In this document: positions 17,751 to 26,866 of the stretch, piece by piece
Layout of the letters: each line of letters opens with the position of its first letter
Numbering within the stretch: the stretch's first letter is position 1
Virus record (IMG/VR): IMGVR_UViG_3300034062_004334
Span: 1-27,304 of that record
DNA: 27,304 bases
Strand: one strand, 5' to 3'
DNA from: a virus
Position numbers and translations under genes: made by a program
The notes under the pieces: model-generated
What the model saw: the letters and a program-made list of their open reading frames with translations, nothing else
The model's database searches: none
Told to the model about the DNA's origin: nothing

Positions 17751-18074
17751 ATGACTCACGCCGAAGCGACTAAGATGGTTTTGGGCAAGCGAAATCGTGG
17801 CCAGCGTAAGATTGGCAATAATACCTACGCCTACATTCAGGCCGATGGTAGCGTTGCAATCGAGTTGCATGGTACGAACGTGGTGGTCATCTACCCTGAT
17901 GATAGCGTGATGCTGAATAGTGGCGGCTGGCATACAAGCACCACGAAGGATCGTATCAACAAGTATAGCCCGGTGCGAGTGTACCAGAAGAACTACGAAT
18001 GGTTCCTCAGCGATGGTACTCCGTTCGAGGATCGGATGATCGTGACCCCCGATTGGGTGGTTGCTCCCGTCTGA
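17751..18074 (+). CDS. conserved phage protein (107 aa)
   Basis: The segments RKIGNNTYAYIQADGSVAIE, HGTNVVVIYPDDSVMLNSGG and 'W.T.TTKDR.N.Y' match a widespread but uncharacterised phage and prophage protein pattern that I recognise from many unrelated tailed phages. The C-terminal part has WFLSDGTPFEDRM, also usual for it. It is probably a small beta-rich domain of unknown role. AAGGA lies before the ATG. The family recognition is from memory of the pattern. Confidence 0.8.
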   Translation: MTHAEATKMVLGKRNRGQRKIGNNTYAYIQADGSVAIELHGTNVVVIYPDDSVMLNSGGWHTSTTKDRINKYSPVRVYQKNYEWFLSDGTPFEDRMIVTPDWVVAPV

Positions 18075-18214
18075 GCCTAAAGCCTTGAAGCGTAACACTT
18101 TACGCCAAGGCCCGCCGCCCGCGTTTGACGCAAACTCTTACGTCTCAACACTTTACGACAAAAAACTTTTTTCTAATGCCAACCCTTGACAAATGCCGAT
18201 AATAGATGTAGACT
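18075..18214 (+). promoter_or_regulatory. regulatory module copy 8 with promoter
   Basis: The hairpin GCCTTG..GCGTAA/TTACGC.CAAGGC (18082-18111) is identical to that of copy 16. It is followed by CCGCCGCCCGCG, GACGCAAACTCTTACGTC, CACTTTACGAC and AAAAAACTTTTTTC. The promoter is TTGACA (18186-18191), N17 with CCGATAATAG, and TAGACT (18209-18214). Confidence 0.85.
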
Positions 18215-18242
18215 TGATGGTATTCAACAACGAGGAGAAGAT

Positions 18243-18446
18243 ATGAGCGATGCTGTGCTGGTTCCTGTGCGTCATGATAACGTGAGTTTCAAGTATCATG
18301 GTAAGGATTTCACCGGAGAGGTTCGTCGAGTGTACGACAAGCCCAAGGGTCATTTGATGATCGTGAAGATCGAAGAGGGTAAGTATAGGTCGTGCTATCT
18401 GGAACAGTGCGAAGGGTTGACCATCCACCTGTCTCACCCGATGTAA
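18243..18446 (+). CDS. hypothetical small beta-rich protein (67 aa)
   Basis: ATG 18243 follows GAGGAGAAGAT. The sequence MSDAVLVPVRHDNVSFKYHG, then FTGEVRRVYDKPKGHLMIVK, is beta-rich and basic. It has two Cys near the end (CYLEQCEG) and could be another small barrel. The C-terminal codons and stop lie next to a CCCGAT/ATCGGG hairpin (18437-18451). Confidence 0.75.
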   Translation: MSDAVLVPVRHDNVSFKYHGKDFTGEVRRVYDKPKGHLMIVKIEEGKYRSCYLEQCEGLTIHLSHPM

Positions 18447-18451
18447 TCGGG

Positions 18452-18517
18452 TTGCTAACTGTGCTGTAGTCAGCCAAATAGTCGGCTCTTGACAAAGGCT
18501 CTTTGAAAGGGTAAAAT
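18452..18517 (+). promoter_or_regulatory. GTAGTCAGC element and promoter, copy 1
   Basis: GTAGTCAGC (18466-18474) lies 23 bases before TTGACA (18489-18494), with TAAAAT at 18512-18517 (N17). The same nonamer lies 23-24 bases before the -35 boxes at 22384 and 26838. It is a second, unrelated promoter-linked repeat. Confidence 0.75.
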
Positions 18518-18607
18518 GTGTTTATACCGTATCTATTAGGATTGTTGGTAGTGATTACTTTTGGTGGTTTCGCTTGTGTAGTTTTGCAGATGGGTGAGGA
18601 TCTCTAA
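18518..18607 (+). CDS. possible membrane micropeptide (29 codons)
   Basis: A GTG at 18518 opens a 29-residue frame with one hydrophobic segment (YLLGLLVVITFGGFACVV) and an acidic end. The GTG touches the -10 box, so the true start may be a later TTG or GTG near 18541-18552, where AGGA precedes. It is included because three further small frames with ribosome sites follow directly. Low confidence. Confidence 0.35.
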   Translation: MFIPYLLGLLVVITFGGFACVVLQMGEDL

Positions 18608-18622
18608 ACTAAGGAGCCAGGG

Positions 18623-18733
18623 ATGGCCGATATTATAAATGTAGATTGGTGGTGGATGGGTGTGGGATTTGTTATTGGTATTGGTTGTTCTTGGGCTGTT
18701 TGTGATATTGTTTTTCCAACACTAAGGAAGTAA
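18623..18733 (+). CDS. single-pass membrane microprotein (36 aa)
   Basis: A perfect AAGGAG lies 6 bases before ATG 18623. MADIINVDWWWMGVGFVIGI, followed by GCSWAVCDIVF and a basic end (LRK), forms one transmembrane segment with a Trp-rich lip. No family is recognised. It is part of a run of micro-ORFs. Confidence 0.65.
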   Translation: MADIINVDWWWMGVGFVIGIGCSWAVCDIVFPTLRK

Positions 18734-18734
18734 A

Positions 18735-18809
18735 ATGACCAATAAGGATAAGATTGTGCTGTCTGTGGCGTTTATCTGTGGTTGTATCGCAACTTTTCTT
18801 GTGGGGTAA
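18735..18809 (+). CDS. membrane micropeptide (24 aa)
   Basis: AAGGAAG lies before ATG 18735, overlapping the end of the previous gene. After a basic start (MTNKDK) comes a single hydrophobic segment (IVLSVAFICGCIATFLVG). It probably inserts in the membrane. Existence is inferred from the ribosome site and tight packing. Confidence 0.5.
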   Translation: MTNKDKIVLSVAFICGCIATFLVG

Positions 18810-18812
18810 AAA

Positions 18813-18878
18813 ATGTTTTCTGGAATCCCTATGATTGTGGAAGCCTTAAAGAAAATGAACGACTCTAAGGGTAGATGA
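18813..18878 (+). CDS. micropeptide (21 aa)
   Basis: ATG 18813 lies 3 bases after the previous stop, with GTGGGG as a possible ribosome site. MFSGIPMIVEALKKMNDSKG is amphipathic and basic. The stop is next to module copy 9. Whether it is translated is uncertain. Confidence 0.35.
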   Translation: MFSGIPMIVEALKKMNDSKGR

Positions 18879-18879
18879 T

Positions 18880-19007
18880 CTAAAGCCCTGTGGCGTAACA
18901 CTTTACGCTGCAAGGCCACGGCCCCATTTTTCATAAACTCTTATCTGGTAACGACTTAGATTTTTTCAAGAAAATCACTTGACAATGCCGATAATAGGTA
19001 GTAGAAT
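18880..19007 (+). promoter_or_regulatory. regulatory module copy 9 with promoter
   Basis: The hairpin GCC.TGTGGCGTAA/TTACGCTGCA.GGC (18885-18916, one mismatch, wobble pairs) is followed by CACGGCCCC, CATAAACTCTTATC, ACGACTTAG and ATTTTTTCAAG. The promoter is TTGACA (18979-18984), N17 with CCGATAATAG, and TAGAAT (19002-19007). Confidence 0.85.
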
Positions 19008-19043
19008 ACGCTTATCACAACACCATCATCACAAGGATTCACA

Positions 19044-19478
19044 ATGGACACCATCGCCCTGACCCTTTCGATCACCAACGCCCTGCTGCTGCTGCGTAAC
19101 GTCACGCTCCCGCTGGATGTGAGGGACGATGTCGCCACCGCTATCGAGAACGCCTTCAAGGGACGCGGACTCAACGTCGGCAACACCAATCGCCTGAACC
19201 TGACGCTGCGATACGTTCCCAAGGATCACAAGGTTAGGGCTATAGCCGTGTTCAAGAATACGCTGAGATTCGGACTGCGTGAGGCAAAGGATTTCGTCGA
19301 GATTGTGCTGGGCAAGGACGGATACTACAATAACGAACACCGATGGAAGGATGGTGTGGCTGGCACCCCCGCCACCATCACGGGGGCAAAGGCAGATGTT
19401 CTCAAGGCCGTGAAGGAACTGGAGAATCTGGGTTGCGAAGTGGTGGTTGACGACTACGGCTGCTCTAATCTCAACTGA
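19044..19478 (+). CDS. ribosomal bL12 C-terminal-domain-like protein (144 aa)
   Basis: Residues 62-135 resemble the bL12 (L7/L12) C-terminal domain: KVRAIAVFKNTLRFGLREAK, with the conserved 'GL.EAK..VE' helix (76-86), then AKADVLKAVKELENLGCEVV, matching the last helix and strand. A 20-residue insert (about 91-111) separates the halves. The N-terminal 60 residues do not look like the bL12 dimerisation domain. The bL12 C-terminal domain contacts translation GTPases, so the protein could affect host translation. Viral bL12 genes are known; this divergent form is unusual. AAGGA lies 7 bases before the ATG. Codons are GC-rich. Confidence 0.75.
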   Translation: MDTIALTLSITNALLLLRNVTLPLDVRDDVATAIENAFKGRGLNVGNTNRLNLTLRYVPKDHKVRAIAVFKNTLRFGLREAKDFVEIVLGKDGYYNNEHRWKDGVAGTPATITGAKADVLKAVKELENLGCEVVVDDYGCSNLN

Positions 19479-19479
19479 C

Positions 19480-19608
19480 ATAAAGCCATGCGACGTAAGA
19501 CTTTACGTTGCAAGGCCACGCCCGCGTTTGACGTAAACTCTTGTCCGATAAGCAGTTGCAACAAAACAAAAAATACCTATTGACTTCTCAAGTTTCGCAC
19601 GGTAGAAT
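19480..19608 (+). promoter_or_regulatory. regulatory module copy 10 with promoter
   Basis: The hairpin GCC.TGCGACGTAA/TTACGTTGCA.GGC (19485-19516) shows compensatory changes relative to copy 9. GACGTAAACTCTTGTC, GCAGTTGCAAC and an A tract follow. The promoter is TTGACT (19580-19585), N17 and TAGAAT (19603-19608), then TGTCGATATAATC. The spacer has CTCAAGTTT, as in the promoter at 19792. Confidence 0.8.
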
Positions 19609-19635
19609 GTCGATATAATCTGTGGAGAAACAAAA

Positions 19636-19809
19636 ATGACAGATCATACATTTACCGTTGTGGTTTCTGATATGTGGACAGACGAGGAACTGGATCGACT
19701 GTCCGCTTCTACGTCTAATGAGGCGTGGGGAATGGCATGGGAAAAGTGGGGATGGCCCGATGGTATGGGTGCGGATGTAAAGTTTACGGAGTTGACAACT
19801 CAAGTTTGA
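19636..19809 (+). CDS. hypothetical protein (57 aa)
   Basis: GGAGA lies 9 bases before ATG 19636. MTDHTFTVVVSDMWTDEELD is followed by an unusually Trp-rich helix (NEAWGMAWEKWGWPDGMG) and a beta end. The next promoter lies inside its last codons. No family is recognised. Confidence 0.7.
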   Translation: MTDHTFTVVVSDMWTDEELDRLSASTSNEAWGMAWEKWGWPDGMGADVKFTELTTQV

Positions 19810-19820
19810 TCGTGTAGAAT
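19792..19820 (+). promoter_or_regulatory. promoter TTGACA-N17-TAGAAT
   Basis: TTGACA (19792-19797) and TAGAAT (19815-19820) overlap the end of the upstream gene. TGTCGATATAAG follows the -10 box. The spacer ACTCAAGTTTGATCGTG resembles that of copy 10, so the two promoters are duplicates about 210 bases apart. Confidence 0.85.
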
Positions 19821-19854
19821 GTCGATATAAGAGAAAAGAGAAAGAGGAAAGAAG

Positions 19855-20058
19855 ATGTTTATTAGTGACTGCTGCGGTGTTCCGGTGCATTGTCAGGATA
19901 TTTGCCCTCGGTGCGGAGAGCATTGTGAGAGTGGTGGAGATGAAGCCTACGAGGCTGCGGTTGATGCTTACAATATGGGATTTGGCCCTCCGGTGACTCG
20001 GCGTCAGCGTTGGGAAGAGCAGATGGAAGCGGATGAATATCGTCGTAATGGTTGGTAA
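19855..20058 (+). CDS. zinc-ribbon-like protein (67 aa)
   Basis: The N-terminus MFISDCCGVPVHC followed by CPRCGEHC gives two CxxC-type knuckles within 30 residues, as in short zinc ribbons of phage and host regulators. The remainder is an acidic then basic helix (RRQRWEEQMEADEYRRNGW). AGAGGAAAG lies before the ATG. A nucleic-acid or protein adaptor role is inferred. Confidence 0.75.
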   Translation: MFISDCCGVPVHCQDICPRCGEHCESGGDEAYEAAVDAYNMGFGPPVTRRQRWEEQMEADEYRRNGW

Positions 20059-20077
20059 TAACAAGGAGAAAGACAAG

Positions 20078-20317
20078 ATGAGACAACCTAAGTGTGTTGT
20101 AACGGTTACTGATACGTTTGGTGGAGAGGCTAACTATGGTTGGGTGAAGCGTTATGAGTTTTCTCCTCGTAATGCAGAGTCTCAGCGTAGCGTTGTTCGA
20201 CAGGCCAAGGCATTGGCGAACATGACCTCTGTGAAGGCCGACACCTACGATTATGGTGACGGATACACTGTGAAGCCGCGAGGATATAACCAGATTATCT
20301 TTGTGGATTTTGAGTGA
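20078..20317 (+). CDS. hypothetical protein (79 aa)
   Basis: ATG 20078 follows AAGGAG with 10 bases spacing. MRQPKCVVTVTDTFGGEANY and YEFSPRNAESQRSVVRQAKA suggest a small alpha/beta protein. The end is beta-rich (DGYTVKPRGYNQIIFVDFE). It shares the transcript of the zinc-ribbon gene. No family is recognised. Confidence 0.75.
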   Translation: MRQPKCVVTVTDTFGGEANYGWVKRYEFSPRNAESQRSVVRQAKALANMTSVKADTYDYGDGYTVKPRGYNQIIFVDFE

Positions 20318-20318
20318 G

Positions 20319-20457
20319 CCACAAACCCTTGCTGCATAAGACTTTGCGGCACGGGTGGCCGCCCCGATTTGACGCAAACTCTTACGCCGCAATACCTTAC
20401 AGCACAAAAGATTTTTCAAGAAATGGGGCTTGACATACCGATAATAGATAGTAGAAT
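20319..20457 (+). promoter_or_regulatory. regulatory module copy 11 with promoter
   Basis: The hairpin CCC.TGCTGCA/TGCGGCA.GGG (20326-20355) is followed by GGTGGCCGCCCC, GACGCAAACTCTTACG, ACCTTACAGC and AAAAGATTTTTCAAG. The promoter is TTGACA (20430-20435), N16 with CCGATAATAG, and TAGAAT (20452-20457). The ATG at 20464 lies about where transcription should start. Confidence 0.85.
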
Positions 20458-20463
20458 ACAAGC

Positions 20464-20670
20464 ATGAATATTCAGCCGATCAACGACAACAATAGCCGTT
20501 TCGACTTGGTGGAAATCAAGTCTACTCACGCCAAAGTGGCGGCTACTCCACACTGTAAGATTCATGGGGCCATGAACTGCGTGGCTATTCATGCAACTGG
20601 GAAGTTGTGGCGTTGTATCCAAAGTAACCAAGTCAAGGACTGTAGGGCTGGGTGCGAAGAGATTTCTTAA
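20464..20670 (+). CDS. Cys/His-rich protein from a leaderless message (68 aa)
   Basis: The ATG is 7 bases after the -10 box and no ribosome site exists, so the message is probably leaderless. After a polar start, CKIHGAMNCVAIH, WRCI and DCRAGC give a Cys/His pattern that could bind zinc. Similar 'C..HG..N....WRC' patterns occur in small phage proteins. The function is unknown. Confidence 0.7.
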   Translation: MNIQPINDNNSRFDLVEIKSTHAKVAATPHCKIHGAMNCVAIHATGKLWRCIQSNQVKDCRAGCEEIS

Positions 20671-20679
20671 AGATTGGTC

Positions 20680-20707
20680 TTGACAATGGTCGATAATAGA
20701 GTATACT
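20680..20707 (+). promoter_or_regulatory. promoter TTGACA-N16-TATACT
   Basis: TTGACA (20680-20685) and TATACT (20702-20707) carry GTCGATAATAG in the spacer but lack the upstream hairpin and boxes. It shows that the promoter part can stand alone. Confidence 0.85.
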
Positions 20708-20749
20708 AGGCGACGTAAGGTTTGGTTTTCACTACACGAAAGGGTTTCT

Positions 20750-21157
20750 ATGAACGATGTGATGTTGTTTGGTTCGATTGCTACGATTGTTGTTTGCTGC
20801 CTCGCTATGTTTGCTGTGTATGGCATCTATGGTGGTGCTTATGGTTCTCTCTCTACCGCAAGGCCAGGAGAGTTCTATAACTTTGAATATCTTCAGCCTA
20901 ACGCTGGTGATCCCGAGCGTTTTCTGGCAAAGGTACTGAGTGTTCATATTCTCGACGAAAATGCTATTCGCAGACTCAATGCTCGTAGCAACTATCGTCG
21001 CCATGATAGCCAGTTTGTGCGTACCAATCATCTGGTAACGTGCCAGACTGCCGATGGTAAGATTCGCAACTTCTATGCTGAGCGTACGGTGAACTGCCGT
21101 AGGCCATTGCTGGCTGGTGCAGCATTCAAGACCGGCTTGGCTAGTCTTCTCTTCTGA
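20750..21157 (+). CDS. membrane-anchored hypothetical protein (135 aa)
   Basis: One N-terminal membrane segment (FGSIATIVVCCLAMFAVYGI, about 7-26) precedes a soluble domain with RARSNYRRHD-like basic stretches (RRLNARSNYRRHDSQFVRT) and QTADGKIRNFYAERTVNCRR. The second half looks like a conserved small phage domain, but I cannot name it. AAAGGG lies before the ATG. It probably faces the cytoplasm or periplasm at the inner membrane. Confidence 0.75.
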   Translation: MNDVMLFGSIATIVVCCLAMFAVYGIYGGAYGSLSTARPGEFYNFEYLQPNAGDPERFLAKVLSVHILDENAIRRLNARSNYRRHDSQFVRTNHLVTCQTADGKIRNFYAERTVNCRRPLLAGAAFKTGLASLLF

Positions 21158-21179
21158 TTTTCTCGTGTTGGTGAAAAGG

Positions 21180-21316
21180 GTTCTCGCTCTAAGTTCTTGT
21201 ATCCCAAGAGTTTAGGGCGAGGCCCGCCGCACGGTTTTGACGTAAAGTCTTATCTGCCATAGACTTAGAAAAATCTCAAGCATTCTATTGACAAAACCCG
21301 ATACTGACAGTATATT
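21180..21316 (+). promoter_or_regulatory. regulatory module copy 12 with promoter (class II boxes)
   Basis: A long hairpin begins CTCGCTCTAA and closes with TTTAGGGCGAG (21183-21221), with CTTG/CAAG inside. GGCCCGCCGC, GACGTAAAGTCTTATC and TAGACTTAG follow. The promoter is TTGACA (21288-21293), N17 with CCGATACTG, and TATATT (21311-21316). Boxes are in the swapped form (AAGAGTTTA then TAAAGTCTTA). Confidence 0.8.
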
Positions 21317-21349
21317 GGCGACTGCTAACCAATCACACTTGGTGAAATC

Positions 21350-21817
21350 ATGTGTCCTATTAGCAGTATCAACGTAGAGGCTATTTCTTCCATCAACCTA
21401 AAAGGTAGGGGAGGAAAAGAGCAGATGCTTCATGATATTCTCACACGGAATAGTGGCTGGAAAAGAGATAGCCATATTCTGTATGATTATTCCAATGATT
21501 TGTTGGGATGTTTGGTCGAATGTAAAAAGCAACAGGACTTGCAATGGATTGACCCTAGTAAGTATCATGATATAACTGATGAACAGAAGCATATTGTGTT
21601 CTTGTTTCTGGTGATTAGCAAGAACGGAACTGTTGATATTGCGTTTACTGTGCGGGTTGGTGAGTTTGTTGACCGGATTTGGACAAGCGAACATATTAAG
21701 GATGCTTGGGAATATATTCAGAAGTATCCGAAAGATCAGATTAAATCGTCTGTGAAGGTGCGGACGTTCTATAAGAATAATCAAGATATTATCACTACAG
21801 TTTATAAGAGGGTATGA
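21350..21817 (+). CDS. possible PD-(D/E)XK nuclease (155 aa)
   Basis: The segment SHILYDYSNDLLGCLVECKK has an acid followed by an 'E-C-K' (E-x-K) on a beta strand, the core of the PD-(D/E)XK nuclease fold, and is preceded by a Gly/Lys-rich helix (GRGGKEQMLHDILTRNSGW). The remainder is alpha/beta with FLFLVISKNGTVDIAF. If correct, it would be a small restriction-like or repair nuclease. No specific family is recognised. The ribosome site is weak. The stop overlaps the next start (ATGA). Confidence 0.6.
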   Translation: MCPISSINVEAISSINLKGRGGKEQMLHDILTRNSGWKRDSHILYDYSNDLLGCLVECKKQQDLQWIDPSKYHDITDEQKHIVFLFLVISKNGTVDIAFTVRVGEFVDRIWTSEHIKDAWEYIQKYPKDQIKSSVKVRTFYKNNQDIITTVYKRV

Positions 21818-21972
21818 TGTATAAGATTGGCAATATTGTTCATGATATTATACAGGATGAGGATGTGATTATTATTGATGTATCGGATAAAACTAATCCT
21901 CCTATGTATCTTGTATTGAATCATGCTGACGATCAGTATTATGTATCGGGGGATGATATTGTGTTGACCTAA
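21814..21972 (+). CDS. small SH3/KOW-like protein (52 aa)
   Basis: ATG 21814 overlaps the previous stop. MMYKIGNIVHDIIQDEDVII, then PPMYLVLNHADDQYYVSGDD, follows the same barrel pattern as the products at 15233-16457 ('IG..V...', a central 'MY.V' strand). It is acidic. The codons are more AT-rich than those of the relatives, suggesting older divergence. The function is unknown. Confidence 0.7.
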   Translation: MMYKIGNIVHDIIQDEDVIIIDVSDKTNPPMYLVLNHADDQYYVSGDDIVLT

Positions 21973-22085
21973 AGTGTTTGTGGATAAGAGTTTAGGACAA
22001 TGGTGGGCGGCCCGATTTGATATAAAGTCTTATGGCATAAGGACTAAAGTTTATGCTTGACAATGCCGATATCATCTAGTAGAAT
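21969..22085 (+). promoter_or_regulatory. regulatory module copy 13 with promoter (class II boxes)
   Basis: The hairpin CCTAAA/TTTAGG (21969-21974 with 21991-21996) includes the stop codon of the upstream gene. GGGCGGCCCG, GATATAAAGTCTTATG and AAGGACTAAAG follow. The promoter is TTGACA (22057-22062), N17 with CCGATATCATC, and TAGAAT (22080-22085). This is the shortest copy. Confidence 0.8.
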
Positions 22086-22091
22086 GATGGG

Positions 22092-22247
22092 ATGAATACT
22101 TCATATTGCTATGCTGCCTTTTCATGGCGTGTTTTTCAAAATAATCGTTTTGTTGGTTATGTTGTTGCGTTTAGCCAGTATGACGCTTATAATAAGGCTC
22201 GTGATAAGTATGGCGATTATATCTGGTTAGAAAGAGTAATCGGTTAG
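22092..22247 (+). CDS. hypothetical protein from a leaderless message (51 aa)
   Basis: ATG 22092 is 7 bases after the -10 box with no room for a ribosome site. MNTSYCYAAFSWRVFQNNRF is followed by a Tyr/Asp-rich part (SQYDAYNKARDKYGDYIW). Its stop is 2 bases before the tRNA-Glu. No family is recognised. Confidence 0.65.
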   Translation: MNTSYCYAAFSWRVFQNNRFVGYVVAFSQYDAYNKARDKYGDYIWLERVIG

Positions 22248-22249
22248 AT

Positions 22250-22321
22250 GGCCCCATTGTATAACGGCTAGTACGCCACCCTTTCACGGTGGAGATCGGA
22301 GTTCGATTCTCCGTGGGGTCA
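22250..22321 (+). tRNA. tRNA-Glu(UUC)
   Basis: It folds as a normal 72-base tRNA: acceptor GGCCCCA/TGGGGTC, D-arm GTAT/GTAC, anticodon arm CCACC-CTTTCAC-GGTGG with anticodon TTC, variable AGAT, and T-arm CGGAG-TTCGATT-CTCCG. CCA is not encoded. It is downstream of the 51-aa gene in the same transcript. It serves as a control for the abnormal tRNA-like RNAs at 23.5-24.1 kb. Confidence 0.95.
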
Positions 22322-22331
22322 TTTGTTTCTG

Positions 22332-22412
22332 CTAATCCTTCGGATTTGGGCGGCGTGGGCGTAGTCAGCCAAAGTTTGTGGTCTTGACAACCGATAATAG
22401 AAGTAGTAGAAT
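22332..22412 (+). promoter_or_regulatory. hairpin, GTAGTCAGC element and promoter, copy 2
   Basis: A hairpin AATCC-TTC-GGATT (22334-22346) after the tRNA is followed by TGGGCGGCGTGGGC, GTAGTCAGC (22361-22369) and AAAGTTT. TTGACA is at 22384-22389, N17 has CCGATAATAG, and TAGAAT is at 22407-22412. The whole block recurs at 26785-26866. Confidence 0.85.
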
Positions 22413-22418
22413 CGCATT

Positions 22419-22622
22419 ATGGAAGTGAAAGCAAAACAGAACGCTCGCAAGTGGACAAAAGAGCGTTTGAAACGACATCCTGGCTTGTGGGAAGTTGAGC
22501 AGGAAGAAAAGTTTGTGACTTGTTGGCCGGGCGAATCGGCTATTATGCTGAAAAATACAACTGATGGTTGGAGTGGTTGGTTTCCGGTGGTGGATATTGA
22601 AATCATAAGGAAAGAAAAATGA
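22419..22622 (+). CDS. hypothetical protein from a leaderless message (67 aa)
   Basis: ATG 22419 lies 7 bases after the -10 box, with no ribosome site, so translation is probably leaderless. The start MEVKAKQNARKWTKERLKRH is strongly basic. A Trp-rich beta part follows (VTCWPGESAIMLKNTTDGWS). The stop overlaps the next start. It might bind nucleic acid. Confidence 0.7.
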   Translation: MEVKAKQNARKWTKERLKRHPGLWEVEQEEKFVTCWPGESAIMLKNTTDGWSGWFPVVDIEIIRKEK

Positions 22623-22825
22623 TTGCTTGTGAGACCGAACATGATAAGATGATGGCCGAAATCATGGTATTTACCCAAACGATTGTGGGTGTGGCCGAAA
22701 TGCGGTCTGTGCCCGCTACTGTGCGGGCTGAGACTATTATGATGGCCGAGAGAATCTTTCATGGGTTGATTATGAAAAAGATGTTGGAAAAGTGTGTGGA
22801 AAAGTCTATTCCCTGCAATAACTGA
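22619..22825 (+). CDS. hypothetical helical protein (68 aa)
   Basis: ATG 22619 overlaps the previous stop, with AAGGAAAG upstream. The protein is nearly all helical and Met-rich (MIACETEHDKMMAEIMVFTQ, MMAERIFHGLIMKKMLEKC). It could form a helical bundle or dimer. No family is recognised. Confidence 0.75.
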   Translation: MIACETEHDKMMAEIMVFTQTIVGVAEMRSVPATVRAETIMMAERIFHGLIMKKMLEKCVEKSIPCNN

Positions 22826-22832
22826 GGAAAAT

Positions 22833-23345
22833 ATGCCAAACTGGTGTTTGAACAACTTGACCGTTGAGCATGAAGATAGTGCTATGATTGACCGATTTGT
22901 GAACGCTTACAATGCTGGTAAGGCTTGTAATGAGTTTCTGCCTATGCCCGAAGGTATTGGTGATGGCTGGTATGATTGGTGCATAAACAACTGGGGAACT
23001 AAGTGGGATATTGGTGCTGATATTGGTACAGAAAAAGAAGAATGGCATGGGCTGAAGGCTACTAGAGTTGGAAATCAAGTGACTTGTTCGTTTGATAGTG
23101 CTTGGGCTCCTCCTGTTGGATTGTATGAAAAACTGGTAGAGTTGGATTATAATGTTCGTGCTACATACTTTGAGCCGGGAATGGCCTACTGTGGCATTTG
23201 GGATAATGGTATTGACAACTATATTGAATATGGTGATATTGTTACTTTGTCATGCACGATTGACAAGCGTGATGTCATTCCTGTAGCATTGTGGAATGAG
23301 TATGGTATGGACGAGTTCTTTGAGGATGATGAGATAGAAGCCTAA
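22833..23345 (+). CDS. DUF1281 (YubB/Api92-like) protein (170 aa)
   Basis: The start MPNWCLNNLTVEHED and the core PMPEGIGDGWYDWCINNWGT (about 37-56), with KWDIGAD and SFDSAWAPPVGLYEKL, are the signature of DUF1281-type proteins found on plasmids and phages, which have a ferredoxin-like fold and no known activity. The length is normal. The acidic tail ends DEFFEDDEIEA. TGAGGAAA lies before ATG 22833. Family assignment is from the motif pattern. Confidence 0.85.
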   Translation: MPNWCLNNLTVEHEDSAMIDRFVNAYNAGKACNEFLPMPEGIGDGWYDWCINNWGTKWDIGADIGTEKEEWHGLKATRVGNQVTCSFDSAWAPPVGLYEKLVELDYNVRATYFEPGMAYCGIWDNGIDNYIEYGDIVTLSCTIDKRDVIPVALWNEYGMDEFFEDDEIEA

Positions 23346-23499
23346 ACGGAAAGGTTCGCTCTAAGTTCTTGACTACCAAGAGTTTAGGGCAAACCGCCGC
23401 GGCCGGGTTCGACGCAAACTCTTGTGTTGTATAGACTTGCATCAAAAAAGATTTTTTCAAGGAATGGTGCTTGACAGACCGATAATAGGAGTGTAGAAT
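23343..23499 (+). promoter_or_regulatory. regulatory module copy 14 with promoter (mixed boxes)
   Basis: The hairpin GTT.GCTCTAA/TTTAGGGC.AAC (23354-23394) with inner CTTG/CAAG is followed by CCGCCGCGGCC, GACGCAAACTCTTGTG, TAGACTTGC and AAAAAAGATTTTTTCAAG. The promoter is TTGACA (23471-23476), N17 with CCGATAATAG, and TAGAAT (23494-23499). It drives an RNA, not a protein gene. Confidence 0.85.
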
Positions 23500-23514
23500 A
23501 CGAGAGTAAGACAT

Positions 23515-23600
23515 GGCGGGTGTAGCGTAATGGTAGCGCGTGTAAAATCGTTGGCAGAGATCTACTGTCTACACGAAATGGTTCGATCCCATTCCCCGCC
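23515..23600 (+). ncRNA. tRNA-like RNA 1, abnormal anticodon arm
   Basis: The acceptor GGCGGG/CCCGCC, a D-arm GCGT-AATGGTA-GCGC and a T-arm AATGG-TTCGATC-CCATT are tRNA-like. The anticodon region is not. GTGTA (23540-23544) pairs with TACAC (23570-23574), and between them AAATCGTT bulges out before a second stem GGCAG/CTGTC with loop AGATCTA, which lacks U33. The linker before the D-arm is one base too long. A promoter lies 16 bases upstream, and the next promoter begins 3 bases after its end. It may be an intron-like, decayed or specialised tRNA. Confidence 0.55.
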
Positions 23601-23602
23601 CC

Positions 23603-23630
23603 TTGACAAATAGAAAACATAGTGTAGAAT
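23603..23630 (+). promoter_or_regulatory. promoter TTGACA-N16-TAGAAT
   Basis: TTGACA (23603-23608) and TAGAAT (23625-23630) sit between tRNA-like RNAs 1 and 2. The initial transcript (ACGATAGTAAGACATGGC) is almost identical to that of RNA 1, so the promoter-leader unit was duplicated. Confidence 0.85.
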
Positions 23631-23645
23631 ACGATAGTAAGACAT

Positions 23646-23743
23646 GGCTAGAGTACGCGAAGTGGGACTTCGAATAGGGTCACCCCTATTGTATGATGAT
23701 CACATACCAGCCGTTCGACTCGGCCCTTTGCCTCTAGTCACCA
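23646..23743 (+). ncRNA. tRNA-like RNA 2 with extra hairpin, encoded ACCA end
   Basis: The 8-bp acceptor GGCTAGAG/CTCTAGTC is followed by ACCA. Inside lie, in order, hairpins CGAAGT-GGG-ACTTCG, AATAGGG-TCAC-CCCTATT, GTATG-ATGATCA-CATAC (a 7-base loop with U33 and GAT at the anticodon position) and GCCG-TTCGACT-CGGC (a T-arm loop). The second hairpin is additional to a tRNA, and seven extra bases separate the T-arm from the acceptor. It has its own promoter and the same leader as RNA 1. It may be an aberrant Ile(GAU)-type tRNA or a mimic. Confidence 0.55.
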
Positions 23744-23900
23744 ACGAAAATCCGATTCATTCGGTGTGCTACCCTCCATAATGAGATCATAGCCTATATT
23801 GGTGACACAATACAAACTTCCGTGGGTCCATGCGACGGGACTAGATTAGGATAAGCCATTACGATAAACCCTATGGCTGCTACGCTCATGCAGCGTGGGG
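23744..23900. other. ORF-free segment with inverted repeats
   Basis: No gene is supported. TTGGTGAC (23799-23806) is a perfect complement of GTCACCAA at the 3' end of tRNA-like RNA 2 (23737-23744). Hairpins CCGA-TTCAT-TCGG, TTCCGT/ACGGGA (23818-23840) and GCTGC/GCAGC (23876-23894) follow; the last is just before the next promoter and may act as a terminator. TTCCGTGGG and GATTAGGATA recur at 24189 and 24229. Confidence 0.45.
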
Positions 23901-23928
23901 TTGACAGCGGGCTTATACGCTGTATAGT
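23901..23928 (+). promoter_or_regulatory. promoter TTGACA-N16-TATAGT
   Basis: TTGACA (23901-23906) and TATAGT (23923-23928) lack the CGATA motif. They lie about 50 bases before tRNA-like RNA 3, and a GGAT-GGC-ATCC hairpin lies in between. Confidence 0.75.
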
Positions 23929-23975
23929 AGTGCTAATCTATGGGGGATGGCATCCTCACCACGAGTAATACAATA

Positions 23976-24111
23976 CGGGAGTAAAAGTCGTTCCCTTTGT
24001 AAGACTGATCATCTTACTAGGTAAATAGACCCATATGGTACGCAAAGATAACTAACGCTGGCGCCAGCAAACCTATCTTTGCGGGTGGTTCGATTCCTCT
24101 ACTCTCTTCCA
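23976..24111 (+). ncRNA. tRNA-like RNA 3 with giant variable region, CCA end
   Basis: GGGAGT (23977-23982) pairs with ACTCTC near the 3' end, and CCA is encoded at 24109-24111. The D-arm AAAG-TCGTTCC-CTTT lacks GG in its loop. The anticodon arm TAAGA-CTGATCA-TCTTA (24000-24016) is canonical, with GAT (Ile) and U33. About 65 bases then replace the variable loop, including a perfect 9-bp stem GCAAAGATA/TATCTTTGC (24042-24050 with 24074-24082). The T-arm has loop TTCGATT and one mismatch. It is the most tRNA-like of the three, yet about 60 bases too long. Confidence 0.55.
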
Positions 24112-24282
24112 TACAACCAGTAACCGTCGCCAAGAGCCAGACCAGAGCGGGTCTTGTGTGCTAGCAATGCCCGCTTTGCAGGGAGGATTTCCGTGGGCGG
24201 TTTCCACAGTTCCCTACTGATTAGGATAGACTGATAGGTAATAGAATCGGGGCGTAAAAGATTCGCTGGTAAAATAAAAAGG
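24112..24282. other. ORF-free segment with inverted repeats
   Basis: No gene is supported. AGACC/GGGTCT, AGCGGG/CCCGCT and GTGG/CCAC pairs are visible. TTCCGTGGG (24189-24197) and GATTAGGATA (24229-24238) repeat sequences at 23818 and 23844. GAATC/GATTC (near 24244-24264) may form a last hairpin. It could be the remainder of a longer structured transcript from the promoter at 23901. Confidence 0.4.
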
Positions 24283-24419
24283 GGTTCGCTCTAAATGCTT
24301 ACGCTGTAAGAGTTTAGGGCAAACTGCCGTGGCCGGATTCGTCGTAAAGTCTTATGCGACAAAGACTTAGGATTCTTAAAGAAAAGCCTATTGACAATCC
24401 GATAATAGTAGTGTAGAAT
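24283..24419 (+). promoter_or_regulatory. regulatory module copy 15 with promoter (class II boxes)
   Basis: The hairpin GTTCGCTCTAA/TTTAGGGCAAAC (24284-24324) with inner CTTAC/GTAAG is followed by CCGTGGCC, GTCGTAAAGTCTTATG, AAGACTTAGG and an AT tract. The promoter is TTGACA (24391-24396), N17 with CCGATAATAG, and TAGAAT (24414-24419). Confidence 0.85.
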
Positions 24420-24441
24420 GGTAGCACAAGGAGAGACGAAG

Positions 24442-24708
24442 ATGCTTGGAACACGATTTGCGTTTTCTGACAGGGTTACTCGTACTGTTAGTGCTGACGG
24501 ACAGGATGTGACGTTCTCTGGAGAGTGTTTGTTCGATAATCATCCGTTCAGTATCACTACCAAAATGAGAGATGCTAATCGCTGGATCAACGGCGAAAGT
24601 ATCCAAAACTGTTTTCCGCATCTTAGTGCGGATGATCGTGAGATTCTGTTGTCTGGTATTAGCCCTAATCATTGGAATACACTGTTTCCGCCGGAGGATG
24701 AAGAATGA
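24442..24708 (+). CDS. hypothetical protein (88 aa)
   Basis: ATG 24442 follows AAGGAGAGACGAAG; the upstream in-frame ATG overlaps the -10 box. MLGTRFAFSDRVTRTVSADG and DVTFSGECLFDNHPFSITTK suggest a beta-rich first half. The second half is helical (RDANRWINGESIQNCFPHLS) with an acidic end. It is coupled to the next gene. No family is recognised. Confidence 0.75.
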   Translation: MLGTRFAFSDRVTRTVSADGQDVTFSGECLFDNHPFSITTKMRDANRWINGESIQNCFPHLSADDREILLSGISPNHWNTLFPPEDEE

Positions 24709-24875
24709 GTGATCCATATTGGACATTTCCGCAGTTTCCTGAGAATAATACTTGGGAGATTCGTTATTTATGTTGGAGAGCGTGTGGTGAAACCAGAGAA
24801 CATAGCACACGACTTGCTAACGAAGGCTATATGCCTGCCTCTTGGTGGATGCTTTATAGGGATGATGGGAGATAG
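24705..24875 (+). CDS. hypothetical protein (56 aa)
   Basis: ATG 24705 overlaps the previous stop as ATGA. The frame reads MSDPYWTFPQFPENNTWEIR..., with WRACGETREHSTRLANEGYM and an end WWMLYRDDGR. A longer frame in another phase exists here but lacks coupling or a ribosome site. It is Trp-rich and polar. No family is recognised. Confidence 0.65.
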   Translation: MSDPYWTFPQFPENNTWEIRYLCWRACGETREHSTRLANEGYMPASWWMLYRDDGR

Positions 24876-24878
24876 ATT

Positions 24879-25007
24879 ATGGAAAATGAAATGAAAGAAG
24901 AAAAGACTGTCCCTCTCAAAGAAATAGTGTCATTTGAGATTTGGCAAACTATTTTTGAGAAGATGATGGAGAGGGAAGAGCAGAGATGGGAGGGAGAGGA
25001 ACAATGA
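24879..25007 (+). CDS. small acidic helical protein (42 aa)
   Basis: ATG 24879 lies 3 bases after the previous stop. MENEMKEEKTVPLKEIVSFE, then IWQTIFEKMMEREEQRWEGE, is Glu-rich and helical, perhaps a coiled coil. GGGAGA lies before the ATG. The stop overlaps the next start. The function is unknown. Confidence 0.6.
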   Translation: MENEMKEEKTVPLKEIVSFEIWQTIFEKMMEREEQRWEGEEQ

Positions 25008-25228
25008 CCGTTTCCGAACTGATTGAGCAGTTGAAGAACTATCCGGGTGATATGCGGGTATTGACTCTTGGGTATGAGGGTGGGTATAATGATACTCGAC
25101 TCAGTACCGATGAGGTTGTATTCAACTTCTCAAAGAATGATGCTTGGTATTATGGGTCTCATGAGAGTGTAAGGTTTACGGATAATGATAGTGGTACACA
25201 GTGTTTGATTATTACGAGGGCAAAATGA
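25004..25228 (+). CDS. phage hypothetical protein, MTVSELIEQL type (74 aa)
   Basis: The opening MTVSELIEQLKNYPGDMRVL, followed by GYEGGYNDT, matches a small, common phage protein pattern ('M.V.ELI..L...P.D..V...GYEGG') of unknown function. The C-terminal half is beta-rich. ATG 25004 overlaps the preceding stop and has AGGA upstream. It would be a soluble protein. Confidence 0.8.
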   Translation: MTVSELIEQLKNYPGDMRVLTLGYEGGYNDTRLSTDEVVFNFSKNDAWYYGSHESVRFTDNDSGTQCLIITRAK

Positions 25229-25431
25229 ACTGGCATTATGGTAATCCTATTGGGGAAGGACAATATCTTTGTTGTGTGATTGGCTATCGATATCCTGTCG
25301 TTACCGATTGGCATGATGGAGCATGGGGTAAATGGCATACAGGCAGAGAGAAGACATGGGTTCCTCTTGATGAAGAACAAGTTCTATGCTATATTGGTTT
25401 TGATGAGATTCCTATGCCGGAGGGTTGGTGA
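25225..25431 (+). CDS. hypothetical protein (68 aa)
   Basis: ATG 25225 overlaps the previous stop. MNWHYGNPIGEGQYLCCVIG and DWHDGAWGKWHTGREKTWVP show a Trp/Gly-rich beta protein. The end VLCYIGFDEIPMPEGW resembles DUF551-like small phage proteins, which often end in 'W...P.P'. The assignment is tentative. Confidence 0.75.
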   Translation: MNWHYGNPIGEGQYLCCVIGYRYPVVTDWHDGAWGKWHTGREKTWVPLDEEQVLCYIGFDEIPMPEGW

Positions 25432-25610
25432 TGAAAACTGAAACTCTTGAACTAACTAAGGTTGAACTTGATTATCTCCTTAGTATTGTTCATGAACATA
25501 TTGACTCTGGTGTTTCATGGGGCAATCATGCTCAGTTTGTAAAGATGCAAAACAGGGTTTTGGAAAAGATTGAGGAAGCATACGATATGGCTTTTGGTCA
25601 TAAAACGTAA
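25431..25610 (+). CDS. hypothetical protein (59 aa)
   Basis: The start shares one base with the previous stop (TGATG), with GGAGG upstream. MKTETLELTKVELDYLLSIV and MQNRVLEKIEEAYDMAFGHK are helical. The stop TAA already belongs to the conserved start of module 16. No family is recognised. Confidence 0.75.
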   Translation: MKTETLELTKVELDYLLSIVHEHIDSGVSWGNHAQFVKMQNRVLEKIEEAYDMAFGHKT

Positions 25611-25743
25611 AGCCTTGAAGCGTAACACTTTACGCCAAGGCCCGCCGCCAGCGTTTGACGTAAACTCTTACGTCATAAAGACTTGTAACACAAAAGATTT
25701 TTTCAAGAATATCGCTTGACAATACCGATAATAGTGGTAGAAT
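25608..25743 (+). promoter_or_regulatory. regulatory module copy 16 with promoter
   Basis: The hairpin at 25612-25641 is identical to that of copy 8, and the match continues with two changes through GACGTAAACTCTTACGTC, where the box itself forms a perfect 7-bp stem. AAGACTTGTAAC and AAAAGATTTTTTCAAG follow. The promoter is TTGACA (25716-25721), N16 with CCGATAATAG, and TAGAAT (25738-25743). Confidence 0.85.
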
Positions 25744-25761
25744 AGCAGCATAAGGAGAACC

Positions 25762-25999
25762 ATGATGAACGATGATCAAATGAAAGGCTATCTTCGCCTA
25801 CTGGCAGGATGAAACGTATTTTGAGTTTGGGGATTTTCTACAGAAGTATTCTTTGCCAAACTTTGCTGAAACCCATATAGGGTGGCATGAGGCGGCAAAC
25901 GAAGTGATGCATGAGCCGTTTGGCCTTCAAATGCCAAAACTGGTAGTGTGTCCTAAAAATGGTTCTATTATGCCAGAGTATTATCTGCAAAAGGAATAG
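25762..25999 (+). pseudogene. frameshifted small gene (two overlapping frames)
   Basis: ATG 25762, with AAGGAG upstream, starts a 16-codon frame that stops at 25812. A well-formed frame without its own start (KAIFAYWQDETYFEFGDFLQ...) runs from 25784 to the TAG at 25999. Removing one G from AAAGGC near 25784-25787 would join them as MMNDDQMKAIFAYWQDETYF. This may be a recent frameshift mutation, a sequencing error or a +1 programmed shift. The joined product would be about 78 residues, with no recognised family. Confidence 0.6.
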
Positions 26000-26001
26000 G
26001 T

Positions 26002-26259
26002 ATGGAATGGATTAGTTTTTTCGGTCCTAGACGCCCTATCAACGGCCAAAAGGTTTATTACTTTGGCGAGTATATTGGTGTGTGGCAGGGAAGGTACGAG
26101 ATTCATCGTGATGATCCGGTGAGCGAACATATCTTGATTTGTGAAGAAACTCCAGGTATAGTAGATCGTATGGATGCTCCGTGGTGGATGCCATATGAGG
26201 GACAACCAAAACCAAAACGACCAGAAAGTGACTACCCAAAGGATTATCCACATGGCTAA
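26002..26259 (+). CDS. hypothetical phage protein (85 aa)
   Basis: MEWISFFGPRRPINGQKVYY, then 'FGEYIGVWQGRYE' and DRMDAPWWMPYEGQPKPKRP, match a recurring small phage protein pattern with a Pro-rich tail (ESDYPKDYPHG); the function is unknown. AAAGG lies before ATG 26002. The end overlaps the next start by 8 bases. Confidence 0.75.
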   Translation: MEWISFFGPRRPINGQKVYYFGEYIGVWQGRYEIHRDDPVSEHILICEETPGIVDRMDAPWWMPYEGQPKPKRPESDYPKDYPHG

Positions 26260-26464
26260 AAACTTTAAGGATTTGCACACTATCGACGCGAAGGATATGA
26301 CACGCGATCAGGCTATGATCTATGTGATTAACTTCTTTAACTCTCGTATGGCTACTATGAGTAATAGCCATAGAAATAAAGTTAAAGAGGTTATTGGACT
26401 GCATGAGATTGGTACTAGCGAACTAGTTAACAAGTATCTGGAGTTAGTTCTTGAAAACTCTTGA
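26252..26464 (+). CDS. hypothetical helical protein (70 aa)
   Basis: ATG 26252 follows AAAGGA at 7 bases and lies inside the end of the previous gene; the longer frame has no ribosome site. MAKNFKDLHTIDAKDMTRDQ and HRNKVKEVIGLHEIGTSELV are helical and basic. No family is recognised. Confidence 0.7.
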   Translation: MAKNFKDLHTIDAKDMTRDQAMIYVINFFNSRMATMSNSHRNKVKEVIGLHEIGTSELVNKYLELVLENS

Positions 26465-26573
26465 CAATGTTTGTGCTTGTGGTAACTGTAATGAACTTTG
26501 CTATATGCTAGATAAGCATGAGGTTTTTTGGAGTTTTTGTGCCGATTGCTACTGGTGGTATCTAAAGTATTGA
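26451..26573 (+). CDS. possible Cys-rich miniprotein with TTG start (40 aa)
   Basis: A TTG at 26451 with GGAG 7 bases upstream opens a 40-codon frame: KTLDNVCACGNCNELCYMLD and VFWSFCADCYWWYLKY. Six cysteines in CxCxxCxxxC...CxxC spacing suggest zinc binding. It overlaps the previous gene by 14 bases, and its stop lies in the hairpin of module 17. The unusual start keeps confidence moderate. Confidence 0.5.
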   Translation: MKTLDNVCACGNCNELCYMLDKHEVFWSFCADCYWWYLKY

Positions 26574-26689
26574 AGCGTAAGACTTTAGAGAGAACCGGGG
26601 CGGCCGGATTTGACGTAAACTCTTATCTATCAACCACTTAGGATTTTTTAAAGAAAACCCTTGACACTGACCGATAATAGAAGTATACT
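26561..26689 (+). promoter_or_regulatory. regulatory module copy 17 with promoter
   Basis: Here the hairpin is CTAAAGT/ACTTTAG (26562-26568 with 26582-26588). CGGGGCGGCCGG, GACGTAAACTCTTATC, ACCACTTAGG and ATTTTTTAAAG follow. The promoter is TTGACA (26661-26666), N17 with CCGATAATAG, and TATACT (26684-26689). It drives the structured RNA at 26697. Confidence 0.85.
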
Positions 26690-26696
26690 TAGGGAA

Positions 26697-26784
26697 ACAA
26701 GTGGGTGGGCCGTTGGCAGAATGATATCAAAGAAGCCACGGTTAAATGGCGGTCGAGTATGGCTCAACCCAACGCTTGTCTTTC
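26697..26784 (+). ncRNA. candidate structured RNA
   Basis: Directly after the promoter, TGGGT-GGG (26702-26709) pairs with CTC-A-ACCCA (26763-26771, one bulged A). Inside, CCGTTGGC pairs with GCCACGG (26710-26717 with 26735-26741, one bulge). CGTTGGCAGA also occurs in tRNA-like RNA 1. A frame of about 45 codons crosses it but runs through the following repeat and promoter, so it is unlikely to be coding. The function is unknown. Confidence 0.4.
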
Positions 26785-26866
26785 CTAATCCTACGGATTT
26801 GGCTGGGGTGGCTGTAGTCAGCGAAAGTTTAAAGGTCTTGACAAGGTTTAGCCGATAAGGTATAAT
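26785..26866 (+). promoter_or_regulatory. hairpin, GTAGTCAGC element and promoter, copy 3
   Basis: The hairpin AATCC-TAC-GGATT (26787-26799), TGGCTGGGGTGGCT, GTAGTCAGC (26814-26822) and AAAGTTT are followed by TTGACA (26838-26843), N17 with CCGATAAGG, and TATAAT (26861-26866). It closely matches 22332-22412. Confidence 0.85.

Follow-up and report, generated by a model that had tools for sequence, protein, structure and literature searches.

Y RNA-like RNAs of the YrlA type, found in bacteria and phages, contain a tRNA-like module and are non-decoding mimics of tRNA. A tRNA body can also serve as a scaffold, in designs that place a foreign structured RNA within the anticodon arm. Engineered tRNA scaffold RNAs are described for expression in E. 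coli (PMC3753655). Phage tRNAs with altered anticodon loops have been proposed to evade anticodon nucleases (PMC10264068), and phage tRNAs are reported to help evasion of retrons and Septu (PMC11555353, PMC13096335).

Here we analyse a freshwater phage fragment from IMG/VR (the window, all 27,304 nt of it) that carries three unusual tRNA-like RNAs, RNA1, RNA2 and RNA3. The terminase of this phage has relatives at 76–100% identity in at least 80 viral contigs; homologue counts throughout are among the matches listed in viral-contig scans. The RNAs, and the related M-tRNAs described below, resemble ordinary phage tRNAs in their cloverleaf, TTCGA T-loop and D-loop GG, and in the position of several M-tRNAs inside tRNA arrays, but differ in having an absent or rebuilt anticodon loop, their own promoters (RNA1 and RNA2), extra arms, and no CCA amid CCA-bearing neighbours (M-tRNAs). 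Like YrlA they appear to be non-decoding RNAs that mimic tRNA, but we identified no Ro-binding stem, and no Y-RNA family is among the Rfam matches in the window or in 15 related regions. With engineered scaffolds they share a structured insert in the anticodon arm, whereas here the RNA is natural and phage-borne and the insert is conserved (in the M-tRNAs). They have tRNA-like ends as tmRNA does, but no tag reading frame, and are shorter than 140 nt; ARAGORN calls no tmRNA in the window. A search of open-access papers yielded no description of these RNAs, and BLAST of the region against named phages found no real homologue.

The RNAs occupy a stretch (23346–24417) without + strand ORFs of at least 60 aa, between + strand ORFs at 22794–23345 and 24418–24708 (Table 1). 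The acceptor-like helices and TTCGA T-loops assigned to them by a first-pass annotation are present there on the + strand, as are the extra hairpin and altered anticodon arm that it described (the RNA2 hairpin at 23673–23690 and the RNA1 insert of 25 nt) and the 9-bp stem that it placed in a 65-base variable-region insertion (24042–24050/24074–24082 in RNA3). That the phage keeps a normal tRNA-Glu is likewise correct: this tRNA, at 22249–22322, is called by both ARAGORN and Rfam and has no encoded CCA. ARAGORN calls nothing else in the window, and at gathering score Rfam likewise matches nothing else, leaving RNA1, RNA2 and RNA3 without a family. The relaxed covariance-model check that the annotation had suggested (Rfam tRNA, RF00005, E ≤ 5) recovered RNA1 at 23516–23600, with 28.7 bits against a gathering score of 29 and the insert placed in the anticodon loop, but left RNA2 and RNA3 undetected. 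RNA2 (z = −2.88) and RNA3 (z = −3.14) are more stably folded than their dinucleotide shuffles, whereas RNA1 is not (z = −0.42).

Table 1. Features of the tRNA-like RNA locus (window coordinates).
Feature	Position	Strand	Basis
Promoter of RNA1, TTGACA-17-TAGAAT	23471–23499	+	11/12 sigma-70-type consensus
RNA1, tRNA cloverleaf with rebuilt anticodon arm	23515–23601	+	RF00005, model R1, homologues L083/L089
RNA1 25-nt anticodon-arm insert	23545–23569	+	Read from sequence
Promoter of RNA2, TTGACA-16-TAGAAT	23603–23630	+	11/12 sigma-70-type; −35 box immediately 3′ of RNA1
RNA2, tRNA-like with extra hairpin	23646–23732	+	Homologue L309
Stem element W, closed by GTCACCAA/TTGGTGAC	23737–23806	+	Also 3′ of RNA1-type RNAs in L083/L084/L127
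ATACAA linker W/X	23810–23815	+	
RNA X, structured, closing stem CGTGG/CCACG	23821–23963	+	At least 71 viral stretches; covarying helices (32-sequence alignment)
False RNA3 promoter (RNA X helix)	23901–23928	+	Covarying helix in relatives
ATACAA linker X/RNA3	23968–23973	+	
RNA3, tRNA-like with long variable arm	23977–24106	+	Homologues L105 group and L184; model R2
ATACAA linker RNA3/Y	24111–24116	+	
RNA Y, structured, closed by CCAG/CTGG	24117–24275	+	Near-identical in L085/L121

RNA1 has an acceptor stem GGCGGG/CCCCGCC, a D-stem GCGT/GCGC with loop AATGGTA, and a T-arm AATGG-TTCGATC-CCATT. Its insert consists of a bulge, AAATCGTT, followed by the hairpin GGCAG-AGATCTA-CTGTC, and is flanked by the stem strands GTGTA (23540–23544) and TACAC (23570–23574); it has no U33 and no seven-nucleotide loop offering an anticodon that could be used. 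Among the matches listed, homologues of this arm are near-identical only, and it has no covariation support. An equivalent promoter and the leader GAGTAAGACAtGG are kept upstream of the close homologues of RNA1 in other phages. One leader and tRNA body carry three anticodon-arm inserts: that of the window, nearly unchanged in L083 and L089; the L084 type, L084, L085, L086, L088 and L090 keeping the promoter, leader and body of RNA1 with a different insert; and that of L087, which opens with the 8-nt palindrome AGTATACT before the contig ends.

This slot led to a family of tRNA bodies, which we term M-tRNAs, in which a fixed motif stands in for the anticodon loop and which is undescribed in Rfam 15 and the open-access literature. 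Traced across viral contigs with DNA patterns, the ~38-nt M motif (AAGU(U)CCGA(GA), a short hairpin, then (G)AGUAGGCANRCAAAUG) lies between the two anticodon-stem strands in more than 20 viral contigs. The surrounding tRNA bodies show no sequence kinship between members, and the anticodon stem varies freely (GGG/CCC, AGG/CCT, CTC/GAG, CCAG/CTGG, GCGC/GCGC, AGAG/CTCT). Across 18 diverse M-tRNAs UCCGA, AGUAGG and AAUG are invariant, and the loop bases beside the insert (AAG...AAAUG) are identical in all bodies (18 sequences); a single M-tRNA, L270, departs slightly from the motif. We take the CC-GAA/AGUA-GG portion to resemble the bulged-G (sarcin-ricin/loop E) motif. In the 28-pair cloverleaf 87.5% of cells are paired and 22 of the 28 pairs show two-sided changes, with a covariation score of 0.497 compared with 0.178 ± 0.016 for shuffles and at most 0.18 for slid controls. 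M-tRNA members score 78–107 bits on model R1 and ordinary tRNAs at most 43 bits. RNA1, which lacks the motif, scores 48.0 bits (L083, 47). No ordinary tRNA searched alongside it exceeds 43.4 bits, but the margin is small, so that the case for its kinship with M-tRNAs lies mainly in the common leader, slot and body.

M-tRNAs are single-copy and sporadic, occurring in 7 of 49 records, four of which were included for an already known M-tRNA. The window terminase has no match in M-tRNA contigs of 323, 251, 191 and 98 kb (which may be incomplete), suggesting that the class crosses phage groups. Several M-tRNAs are positioned inside phage tRNA arrays, and in the arrays of L449, L464, L456 and L468 the CCA encoded in all sampled neighbouring tRNAs (36/36) is absent from the M-tRNA; one M-tRNA, in L469, does encode CCA. 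A histidine identity, with an extra G pairing with C73, was rejected because M-tRNAs vary too widely at their acceptor ends. Three M-motif matches in genome contigs had no tRNA context and were judged to be chance. BLAST of M-tRNAs and the M core against named phages found no real homologue, the match in Vibrio nt-1 being the variable arm of a tRNA-Ser and those in S-CRM01 and Gordonia T-arms only, and inspection by eye of the ORFs flanking M-tRNAs gave no functional hint. At slightly short of even odds, we read M-tRNAs as a new phage RNA class, spread across unrelated phages, whose fixed ~38-nt tertiary motif would be presented, on an uncharged scaffold, as a ligand to a single conserved target in the host, for example a translation factor, a site on the ribosome or a defence enzyme that acts on tRNA; under the same tentative reading, RNA1 would be a variant carrying another ligand in the M-tRNA scaffold.

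RNA2 follows RNA1 head to tail with its own promoter, a layout also present in L085, L309, L451 and L463. Its extra hairpin, AATAGGG/CCCTATT, lies between the D-like and anticodon-like arms; the 7-nt loop ATGATCA is at 23696–23702 and the T-arm at 23710–23724. The search pattern for RNA2 drew mostly chance matches, and support comes from one homologue, L309, which keeps GTACGCGAAGTGGGACTTCGAA, the loop and the T-arm, has four two-sided compensatory changes in the extra hairpin, anticodon stem and acceptor, and gives 112 bits with model R3. The acceptor is GGCGAT/ATTGCC in L309 and GGCTAG/TTTGCC, with one U-U mismatch, in the window. An 8-bp acceptor, GGCTAGAG/CTCTAGTC followed by ACCA, was rejected: L309 favours GGCGAT/ATTGCC, and TAGTCACCA is part of element W, whose closing stem shows a T-A to C-G compensation in L309. 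Such an 8-bp, CCA-ended helix, probably the one that the first-pass annotation had in view, uses bases of W.

RNA3 comprises an acceptor GGGAGTA/TACTCTC, an arm GTAAGA-CTGATCA-TCTTAC (23999–24017), TAAATAGACC (24022–24031), the variable arm and a T-arm with loop TTCGATT. A first search pattern gave mostly chance matches and a tighter one the true set, in which the order acceptor, GTYGTTCSC, hairpin, TAAATAGACC, variable arm, T-arm is common to RNA3 of the window, the L105 group and L184, a 204-kb contig in which the window terminase is unmatched. Between the L105 group and L184 all 28 pairs are kept, none is broken, and nine show compensation on both sides. As MAFFT did not align the window RNA3 correctly, model R2 was built from the two homologues with the window left out and then tried on it; 23972–24108 came out first there, with 19.8 bits (E = 0.0046) against 13.3 bits for the runner-up. 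Because the homologues were retrieved with window-derived strings, this result is support rather than independent discovery, and two short conserved strings and the layout tie RNA3 to the family.

Between the tRNA-like RNAs lies RNA X (~143 nt), which is better conserved than any other part of the locus. It looks like a separate new RNA family, and no Rfam family matches it in the regions scanned. BLAST of X against named phages found no real homologue. The first-pass annotation had given each tRNA-like RNA its own sigma-70-type promoter. This holds for RNA1 and RNA2 (both 11/12), but the match proposed for RNA3 (TTGACA...TATAGT in the window) lies in an RNA X helix that reads ACAGCG/CGCTGT, CCAACG/CGTTGG or ACAGTGC/GCACTG in other phages; as the helix covaries and TTGACA is lost, no RNA3 promoter lies there, and RNA3 is instead bounded by linkers. 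The linker sequence ATACAA occurs at 2.70 per kb on the RNA strand near X, compared with 0.27 per kb elsewhere in those contigs and 0.37 per kb antisense, and is found within 16 nt 3′ of X in 43 of 58 X copies. In L085 and L121, X directly adjoins Y without RNA3, which makes RNA3 an inserted module; W, X, RNA3 and Y together form an array of RNAs separated by ATACAA linkers.

Homologues also bear on the sequence details of the first-pass annotation. Its two encoded CCAs do not survive: that of RNA2 (23741–23743) belongs to the W stem GTCACCAA/TTGGTGAC, that of RNA3 runs into the ATACAA linker, and neither is kept in homologues (L309 for RNA2). GATC is present in all three apical loops of the window (AGATCTA, ATGATCA and CTGATCA in RNA1, RNA2 and RNA3) and is kept in the RNA2 homologue and the near-identical RNA1 ones, but the RNA3 homologues have GAAGGCCAA, in which the palindrome is reduced to GGCC. 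The proposal of a new RNA family has gained ground, in that the alignments support three families, one for each RNA and each with compensatory changes, and none reaches an Rfam gathering score in the window. Homologues compared for decay without compensation carried compensatory changes.

Further elements accompany these arrays. RNA X (window, L256–L323) shows loop–loop complementarity of AUGC with GCAU or GCGU, as judged by eye. RNA Y (window, L085, L129, L135) contains a hairpin GAATC-GGGGCGTAAAA-GATTC, with two copies in L135. The last part of the L132 array is ACAATACAA, after which come a Shine-Dalgarno sequence and an ORF. L130, L132 and L134 have an RNA with a GATAG/CTATC stem and exchangeable tRNA-like domains (RF00005 34–35 bits in L132 and L134; a different domain in L130), and a conserved module 'U', GCAGATGAGGG...CCCTATCTGC (L129–L134), lies upstream of X in many phages. 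About eight copies of an ~83-nt intergenic repeat, with a TAAA..CTTTA hairpin and GCGTTTGACGTAAACTCTTA, are found over 18072–26640 of the window; it precedes many promoters of the form TTGACA-N-CCGATAATAG and is probably a regulatory or terminator unit. A 55-nt repeat with GCGTAGTCAGCCAAAG occurs directly 3′ of the tRNA-Glu (22323–22377) and again 4.4 kb on (26776–26830), the copies being 82% identical.

We consider it probable (roughly 0.6) that RNA1, RNA2 and RNA3, none of which has a standard anticodon loop, are small RNAs on a tRNA scaffold that do not decode and that the phage carries as exchangeable cassettes, with the altered arm binding a host factor. RNA1 and RNA2 are promoter–RNA units placed head to tail, and RNA3 is a module of a polycistronic W–X–RNA3–Y array in which the ATACAA linkers probably mark cleavage sites. 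The retained tRNA acceptor, T-arm and elbow (modified in RNA3) may provide for processing by host RNase P and end-trimming enzymes and for stability. The RNAs would be uncharged, and the anticodon arm, no longer decoding, would display the special structure. Most likely it competes for, or lures away, a host factor directed at tRNA or at the apparatus of translation. Our leading guess is a decoy for such a factor, and a decoy for tRNA-acting defence is attractive in view of the known evasion of such defences by phage tRNAs (PMC10264068, PMC11555353). The proposal of the first-pass annotation, decoys for anticodon nucleases or synthetases, may thus hold.

A role against host tRNA-cleaving defences, with the RNAs as decoys or insensitive substrates that resemble tRNA to a nuclease reading the elbow or acceptor but lack the cleavable anticodon loop, seems less likely, if worth weighing. 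Rapid exchange of arms within one slot fits an arms race, and altered-loop phage tRNAs are proposed nuclease evaders (PMC10264068; for retrons and Septu, PMC11555353 and PMC13096335), but the near-invariance of the M motif across unrelated phages suggests that it binds one precise partner and has not simply lost a site for cutting, and no nuclease is named by sequence. That palindromic apical loops form kissing dimers, pairing the RNAs with themselves or each other, is improbable: the loops do contain the 6-nt palindromes AGATCT, TGATCA and TGATCA, and the L087 insert an 8-nt one, but the RNA3 homologues retain GGCC only and M-tRNAs have no such loop. Still less probably, RNA2 and RNA3 are unusual working tRNA-Ile(GAU). 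Their 7-nt loops carry U33 and GAU at 34–36, and L309 keeps the RNA2 loop though the stem has changed; however, position 37, a purine in tRNAs, is C in both, the RNA3 homologues have GAAGGCCAA, an additional arm is present in RNA2, and RNA1 lacks U33.

In favour of decaying tRNA pseudogenes, ARAGORN calls none of the three RNAs, RNA1 falls slightly below the Rfam cut-off, and the extra parts look irregular, but the covariation in these alignments already contradicts this reading, which we regard as very improbable: all three families show compensation, promoters are kept, and the motif is invariant in 18 M-tRNAs. Least probable is the intron-like tRNA of the first-pass annotation, in which a small anticodon-loop intron would be excised to yield normal tRNAs, because, although the insert falls precisely within the anticodon arm and the remainder of the RNA is a cloverleaf, the sister M-tRNAs keep one insert and constant AAG...AAAUG flanks in all bodies, so that splicing would restore no variety of anticodons, and no Rfam intron matches at E ≤ 1 in 15 related regions.

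It has long been asked why phages carry tRNAs, and a conserved non-decoding tRNA shape within full tRNA arrays points to a role beyond translation. Arrays in which structured RNAs can be swapped between copies of one linker are a type of phage RNA locus that has gone unstudied, and the invariant M motif offers a defined sequence for expression, deletion and bait experiments.
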